Source of the DNA: Gammaproteobacteria bacterium
Lineage (GTDB): Bacteria > Pseudomonadota > Gammaproteobacteria > Xanthomonadales > Wenzhouxiangellaceae
Assembly: GCA_003567685.1 (NCBI GenBank)
Contig: PWYW01000029.1
Coordinates: forward strand, 1-64,000
Reading direction: 5' to 3'
DNA length: 64,000 bases
The position numbers were made by a program, and so were the translations under genes. A model generated the notes under the pieces. That model was given only the letters and a program-made list of their open reading frames with translations. It searched no databases and was not told where the DNA came from. Numbering within the stretch: position 1 is the first letter of the stretch; each line of letters opens with the position of its first letter. Positions 30,145-31,311 of this stretch are shown here, in pieces.

Positions 30145-30876
30145 TTGTCATGCCAGAAACGCATGGAAACAGCATCAGAACATGCCACACGGCTCCGTTT
30201 TATTGCGCTGGCCCTCGCGCTTTCCTTGCTGGCTCATGGCCTGGTTCTGATGTGGCCGGGACAGCCGGCGCCCCCGTCGACGTCGCCAGCAAGCGTTGAA
30301 ATAGCGCTTGAACGTTACGTGACTACACTCGAACCCAAGCCCGAACCACCAACCGAATCCCAACCCAGCGATCAACCCGATCCCTCACCCTCCTCGACCG
30401 TGACTCAGGCCCCGACCCAAACCGTCACAGCGCGGGAGCCCGTCGAAACGACCAAAGCTGTCGAACCCCTAACTGGTCTTGAGCCTGAATGGCCGGCATT
30501 CGACACCCAGCGATTACGGCAACAACTGCATCGCTACGCCAGCGAGGCTCATCCGATCGAGCGAGACAACGATCCGGGGCGAGCGATCATGTCACCCAAT
30601 GGGCCCGCCCTTCCCAGTGCGGTTGGCTGGCTGAATGACTACGTCGGCCAGGTCACCCCCAGCGTTGACCGCTGGACCAGTCCCGACGGCAGCCAGCACG
30701 CGCGAATCGTACTGGCCAATGGCCGGGTTTACTGCGGCAAAAGTGGTCCGCCGACCGCGGCCGAAATGTTCAACCCGTCGATGTCCGCCAACGTCATGCG
30801 CTATCGCTACTGCGGGCGGGAGCGGCCTGACCCGATTGATCGCAGCAACCCCTGGGTTCGCGGTGCGGGGCAATAA
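30145..30876 (+). CDS. Hypothetical protein with N-terminal anchor and TonB-like Pro-rich linker
   Basis: N-terminal TM ([21 protein letters not shown]), Pro/Glu/Thr-rich linker, conserved-looking C-terminus with two Cys; ATG at 30163 is an alternative start. Confidence 0.6.
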
Positions 30877-30927
30877 AAAAGCCCGCGCAAGGCGGGCTTT
30901 TTTATTAATGGCGGAGGGGGTGGGATT
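30871..30927. repeat. 57-bp direct repeat, copy 1: terminator hairpin plus 3' end of tRNA-Ser
   Basis: CAATAAAAAAGCCCGCGCAAGGCGGGCTTTTTTATTAATGGCGGAGGGGGTGGGATT, identical to 31047-31103. Confidence 0.95.
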
Positions 30928-31046
30928 GCTGCGCCCCTGCGGGGCTTGCCCTTCGGGCTGGCGCTTGCGCGTCAGCGAGCTCAGGCCGCGACGCGGCCTT
31001 CGGTTCGAACCCAAAGCGTTTTCATCCGGGCTTCCCCCTTCACCAT

Positions 31047-31103
31047 CAATAAAAAAGCCCGCGCAAGGCGGGCTTTTTTATTAATGGCGGAGGGGGTGGG
31101 ATT
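31047..31103. repeat. 57-bp direct repeat, copy 2 (overlaps the 3' end of the intact tRNA-Ser(TGA))
   Basis: Identical to 30871-30927; contains AAAAAAGCCCGCGCAAGGCGGGCTTTTTT, a bidirectional terminator hairpin. Confidence 0.95.
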
Positions 31104-31174
31104 CGAACCCACGAAGGGCTTTCACCCTTGCCGGTTTTCAAGACCGGTGCATTCAACCGCTCTGCCACCCCTCC
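31085..31174 (-). tRNA. tRNA-Ser (anticodon TGA)
   Basis: Minus strand GGAGGGGTGGCAGAGCGGTTGAATGCACCGGTCTTGAAAACCGGCAAGGGTGAAAGCCCTTCGTGGGTTCGAATCCCACCCCCTCCGCCA; class II with long variable arm and encoded CCA. Confidence 0.95.

Positions 31175-31219: not shown

Positions 31220-31311
<92 letters not shown>

Follow-up and report, generated by a model that had tools for sequence, protein, structure and literature searches.

The 119-bp hairpin-rich spacer that follows a tRNA-Ser(UGA) gene in the window, the whole 64,000-nucleotide stretch of DNA that we analyzed, is identified by sequence comparison as a divergent copy of the non-coding, hairpin-rich element RtT, which in E. coli occurs behind a tyrosine tRNA gene. 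We consider it probable (roughly 0.7) that the tRNA-Ser(UGA) tail of the window contains, in this spacer, a divergent RtT-type element and that elements of this type are non-coding insertions that target tRNA genes. The original prediction had suggested that the element might be undescribed, a label that does not hold given that it shares its architecture with the E. coli tyrT repeats, represented in Rfam as RtT (RF00391); the kind of element is known, and the window copy is a divergent example of it. What is new is the range of tRNA hosts, the exact boundary in the T-loop, the insertions in D-loops, the two Bacteroidales copies, and a closing strand that matches the host tRNA. In literature of incomplete coverage, we found no description of insertion in T- or D-loops or of a host-matched closing strand, nor of a host range comprising Ser, Arg, Thr, Glu, Gln, and Cys tRNAs.

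The host genome (Wenzhouxiangellaceae, Gammaproteobacteria; 2.7 Mb, 99.6% complete) has Wenzhouxiangella MAGs as its nearest named relatives. The tRNA genes and all parts of the element lie on the minus strand, and ARAGORN detected a tRNA-Ser(GGA) gene (31220-31311) and the intact host tRNA-Ser(UGA) gene (31085-31174; Rfam tRNA score, 61.7 bits). The repeat unit begins at the T-loop of the latter gene (GGGTTCG/AATCCC), and the spacer (30928-31046) is flanked by two 57-bp copies that are identical at 57 of 57 positions and recur with a period of 176. The proximal copy (31047-31103) comprises the tRNA 3' half, from AATCC of the T-loop to CCA, and an intrinsic terminator, recognized from its sequence as the rho-independent AAAAAAGCCCGCC..GGGCTTTTTT (31052-31081) in the gap between tRNA and element. 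It is followed by the A' strand (ATGGTGAAGGGGGAAGCCCGGATGAAAACG; 31017-31046), an inverted tRNA T-arm/acceptor sequence with GGATGAAAA as judged from duplex energy and the RtT consensus structure, and then by the T-loop-like palindrome GGTTCGAACC (31002-31011), which forms the left junction of the core and corresponds to the T-arm-like sequence that had been predicted within the spacer. The core insert (ACCGA..HP1..GAGCTCGCTG..HP2..CCCGAAGGGCAAG..HP4..GCAGCA; 30927-31004) was delimited by comparison with related copies. HP1 (GGCCGCGTCGCGGCC; 30984-30998) and HP2 (CTGACGC..GCGCCAG, with one mismatched pair in the window copy; 30958-30975) were recognized from the sequence and have stems that vary among copies; HP3 (GCCCGAAGGGC; 30948-30958) was recognized by comparison, its E. 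coli RtT counterpart CCCGAAGGGC being conserved, and HP4 (GCCCCGCAGGGGC; 30933-30945) from its sequence and from compensatory changes. After HP4 come GCAGC and the distal copy (30871-30927), with a second tRNA 3' half running from AATCCC to CCA (AATCCCACCCCCTCCGCCA; 30909-30927) and a second terminator. This layout confirms the prediction of a hairpin-rich spacer between two repeat copies, as well as that of a repeat copy stopping at the T-loop, given that the distal copy ends exactly there. The terminator between tRNA-Ser(UGA) and the element makes transcription of the window copy uncertain. A convergent ORF of 243 amino acids adjoins the element on the plus strand (30145-30876), and the syntenic site in relatives can be recognized from its homologues.

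Compared with RF00391, the window copy (30909-31050) scored 28.4 bits (E = 8e-4 for 241 bp), below the gathering cut-off of 45 bits, and aligned to positions 1-130 of 130, ending at CCA and with several non-standard pairs. A relative of the same genus (L113) passed this cut-off at 51.6 bits, locus L105 and a copy on C81 of the own genome scored 44.8 and 43.8 bits, respectively, and the E. coli units scored 134-138 bits. The tandem units of E. coli K-12 tyrV, 178 bp in length, are bounded by AATCCTTCCCCCACCACCA and contain GGATGAGAAGCTTCGACCAAGGTTCGACTCGAGCG...CCCGAAGGGCGAAG...GAGTAATCC; they have in common with the Wenzhouxiangella copies the sequence in which the parts are arranged and a TTC-to-GAG change in the inverted T-arm. 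The window locus resembles the E. coli tyrT/tyrV repeats (rttR/tpr) in its tandem unit starting from AATCC of the T-loop (AATCC-bounded and 178 bp in tyrV), its A' strand with GGATGAGAA, its GGTTCGA, its hairpins with CCCGAAGGGC, and the tRNA 3' half with CCA at its end, and it likewise sits downstream, at the tail of a tRNA gene whose 3' end is repeated. It differs from them in that the host tRNA is Ser(UGA) rather than Tyr, the unit is 176 bp, a terminator separates tRNA and element, and relatives of the window copy are also found inside T- and D-loops. Members of the RtT family near Asn- and Lys-tRNAs are described in excerpts of PMC4986893. Among them, the Pasteurellaceae RtT sRNAs Arrc20 and Arrc21 resemble the window family as RtT RNAs at other tRNAs (Asn, Lys) and are expressed; unlike the window copy, they are placed upstream of their tRNAs, have been studied as trans-acting sRNAs, and are described with no mention of a T-loop boundary, according to the same excerpts. 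E. coli K-12 also carries part of an RtT unit between its two tRNA-Tyr genes, on the upstream side of tyrV (L134:1664-1701, minus strand). A self-cleaving ribozyme had been considered for the resemblance of GATGAG to a hammerhead core and was rejected; Rfam at a loose threshold gave no ribozyme, and the motif is explained by the inverted T-arm. Other Rfam matches (sX4, Thr_leader, and the like) were weak, fell below cut-off, and overlapped tRNA and terminator sequences.

Examination of other tRNA loci, which the original prediction had proposed as a check, revealed copies at tRNA genes in the own genome and in relatives, so that the spacer is neither unique nor missing near tRNAs in relatives, as it would be had the prediction been wrong. 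The own genome was surveyed with a DNA search and with a pattern search for the left junction. The DNA search returned related copies on C37 (E = 1.5e-7), C81 (1.2e-5 and 1.5e-4), C67 (1e-3), and C1 (0.006), located at Arg(CCG), Ser(GCU), Ser(CGA), and Glu(UUC) tRNA genes, with the Glu(UUC) copy apparently split across two contig ends. The pattern search added two tandem copies behind Thr(UGU), and its remaining matches in the own genome had no element. All significant own-genome copies lay at tRNA genes (three at Ser, two at Thr, and one each at Arg and Glu), corresponding to six tRNA species. Looser patterns applied to the 43 genomes of the family revealed copies in several genera, situated behind Arg, Thr, Ser, and Glu tRNAs; the window locus, used as a query, retrieved many tRNA-Ser loci, some with and some without the element. 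A class-wide search with RF00391 gave matches at E <= 1e-3 in 66 of 369 gammaproteobacterial genomes, 23 of which passed the cut-off; a tRNA gene (Gln, Tyr, Ser) was near the match, mostly just upstream of it, in 28 of the 30 loci fetched, and the other two matches were near contig starts. The strict pattern had no match in viral contigs, and in 300 genomes of the order its matches were confined to the own family; among 395 Bacteroidia it matched the starting genome only, and RF00391 gave a single sub-threshold match there, near a tRNA-Ser. Many copies are vertically related, and these counts are therefore not independent.

As read from the sequence, both ends of the window insert lie in the T-loop (GGTTCGA^ATCC). 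Among 52 copies that were tabulated, the core ended at (A)ATCC and was followed by a tRNA 3' half, which in most copies matched the host tRNA type better than, or as well as, any other and was decayed at Glu loci and a few others. The suggestion that a structured cassette had been inserted in a tRNA T-arm is well supported by this boundary, seen in ~50 copies, and by the existence of interrupted tRNA genes. In arrays of the upstream type the core lies inside the tRNA gene, the 5' half extending to GGTTCGA and being followed by the core and then by ATCC. Such T-loop-interrupted tRNA-Ser genes were found at L003, L111, L117, L119, L121, L122, and L132, and were followed by an intact copy of the same tRNA at all of these loci except L121, at which the downstream copy was itself disturbed. 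An RtT-type core was also present in the T-loop of tRNA-Cys, with an intact tRNA-Cys after it, in two Bacteroidales MAGs (L062:3513-3567 and L063; minus strand), copies that reflect either occurrence across phyla or a binning error. Cores in the D-loop were found at L106, L109, L117, L122, and, twice, L127, with junctions of the form GGTTGAA/CCGAG...GCAGTC(A/C)A/TGC; at L106, one core was joined to the end of another, with the right end then running on as the T-loop 3' half. The junctions in T-loops and D-loops suggest a common target, GGTT(C)GA^AT. Insertions were also found in pseudo-tRNAs. At L113 and L114 the syntenic downstream gene was kept, with only tRNA-Ser(UGA) and a terminator and no element; the syntenic tRNA-Ser(UGA) site contained only a small remnant at L121 and a full unit in G021 (L105). 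Loss of the element could also explain the empty sites.

The RtT consensus structure has the A' strand paired with the 3' end derived from the tRNA. For the window copy, the duplex of A' with the distal tRNA 3' end had an energy of -25.7 kcal/mol, better than with any 3' end of the 31 copies whose host tRNAs serve other amino acids. The mean duplex energy for 61 copies was -20.8 kcal/mol with their own 3' end versus -15.6 kcal/mol with those of tRNAs for other amino acids. For 34 Wenzhouxiangellaceae copies it was -19.5 versus -17.0 kcal/mol after permutation, with none of 20000 permutations being as good; because the copies share ancestry, for which the test was uncorrected, this result denotes a strong trend and not an exact probability. 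Pairing was poor at Glu loci and at some Ser and Thr loci. These comparisons point to a strong trend for the A' strand to follow the host tRNA. RNA folding, another check that had been proposed, gave no signal on the basis of energy alone, with the spacer being no better than dinucleotide shuffles (z = -0.35 and -0.13). Given that its folding energy is ordinary for its composition, the hairpins are meaningful through comparison only. Distinct stem sequences among 43 parsed copies numbered 17 for HP1, 22 for HP2, and 13 for HP4, and the longer ones were self-complementary; the shortest HP1 and HP2 "stems," of 2-3 bp, carry no evidential weight. RNAalifold identified four pairs with changes on both sides among 23 copies, missing HP2 because of length changes. 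Comparison across copies thus supports the hairpin structure.

The sequence comparisons demonstrate homology to RtT, boundaries in T- and D-loops, association with tRNAs, matching between A' and host, and presence or absence at syntenic loci, and on these we base the following model. RtT-type elements would be gene-less, hairpin-rich insertions of ~50-110 bp with a sequence-specific target, which would lie mainly in the tRNA T-loop, between its two A residues (GGTTCGA^ATCC), and less frequently in the D-loop (GGTTGA^ATGC) or at the right end of the element itself (GTCA^AT). Insertion breaks the tRNA gene, so the copies that survive would be tandem units that leave one intact tRNA, and the need for that intact tRNA would result in two types of array: downstream arrays, as in the window, with an intact tRNA, n repeats of tRNA 3' half, terminator, A', and core, and then a tRNA 3' half; and upstream arrays, with an interrupted tRNA followed by an intact one. 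In downstream copies A' would pair with the tRNA-derived 3' end, so that a tRNA-like acceptor/T stem with CCA would be part of a transcript, which might be open to processing by tRNA maturation enzymes. Such a tRNA-like 3' end would fit the release of E. coli rtT RNA from tRNA transcripts as published in excerpts of PMC4986893. Mobility is what we infer from the comparative anatomy of the sequences, and processing and the existence of an inserting enzyme are postulated along with it. A bolder version of the model, in which RtT is an active, gene-less mobile class that is specific to T- and D-loops and extends across phyla (Gammaproteobacteria and a few Bacteroidales), and in which working tRNA genes tolerate certain insertions in an intron-like manner, for example that in the D-loop of tRNA-Ser(CGA) of genome G029, is possible though doubtful; the tRNA-Ser(CGA) with this insert was the only Ser(CGA) found in G029.

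A different and, in our view, unlikely explanation is that the element is a functional small or cis-acting RNA of tRNA operons that has been selected and has spread by tandem duplication and gene conversion from one tRNA locus to another, without itself being mobile. The four-hairpin layout and the linkers are conserved across Gammaproteobacteria, the A' closing strand matches the host tRNA, and excerpts of PMC4986893 describe both E. coli rtT as a released RNA that affects the stringent response and the detection of Pasteurellaceae copies on Northern blots. Such a role is difficult to reconcile, however, with the insertions in D-loops and pseudo-tRNAs, the lack of the element at many syntenic or homologous loci, the rapid change of all stems, and the finding that only 66 of 369 sampled genomes were positive at the sensitivity of the search.

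The T-loop dyad GGTTCGAATCC suits the core sites of tyrosine integrases, and we counted it in favor of a scar left by an island, in which the crossover would lie in the T-loop, the displaced fragment would be the duplicated 3' half, and the core would be a remnant of the island. Integrative elements in tRNA genes (Islander, PMC4383910) share with the window locus a tRNA gene that is split and regenerated by the element, as well as a displaced fragment marking the far end, a hallmark of such islands. An island scar nevertheless seems very improbable, given that the ~0.2-kb unit is without genes (at 176 bp it is too small for any, an integrase included), that the core is common to Ser, Arg, Thr, Glu, Gln, Tyr, and Cys tRNAs, and that it also occurs in D-loops. 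About as improbable is a REP/BIME-type repeat moved by RAYT (Y1 transposase): the predicted label "REP-like" applies only loosely, in that the copies are numerous and non-coding, have short palindromic hairpins with GCA/GAA loops and a sequence-specific target without clear target duplication, and belong to an element, rtT, that resembles some BIMEs (PMC2965389), but the copies, unlike REPs, are confined to tRNAs as a strict target rather than dispersed at extragenic sites, have different conserved motifs, and occur in a 99.6%-complete genome in which the proposed check for RAYT yielded no match to PF01797, with the same result for carriers G018, G023, G026, G028, and G030. A PF01797 match was present in carriers G014, G015, and G024; its lack from the host genome and from the five carriers of the same genus indicates that a resident RAYT is not needed.

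To our knowledge, no clear origin has been given for the E. coli tyrT repeats in the decades since they became known. The preferred reading, tRNA-targeting insertion that leaves one intact tRNA, provides a testable explanation for them, and it would also account for many partial tRNA copies and tandem tRNA tails. Which enzyme puts a gene-less hairpin element into tRNA genes is a question that follows from it.

Several further observations concerned individual loci. The tRNA-Ser(CGA) of genome G029 (L109:1162-1332, plus strand) contains an RtT-type core of ~84 nt in its D-loop and yet has an intact promoter, stems, and 3' end; an intact Ser(CGA) copy was not found in this 84%-complete MAG. Downstream of tRNA-Ser(UGA) at L129 (genome G036) lies the start of an ORF that, as judged by eye, resembles an IS110-type transposase. 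A second recurrent hairpin (GCG-stem-CGC) was present at L003, L117, L119, L121, and L132, after the truncated acceptor strand and before the duplicated promoter, and may mark another junction. In genome G002 (L127:1140-1590), two tandem units, each composed of a promoter, a tRNA-Ser 5' part with a D-loop insertion, and a hairpin, were followed by an intact tRNA-Ser(UGA).
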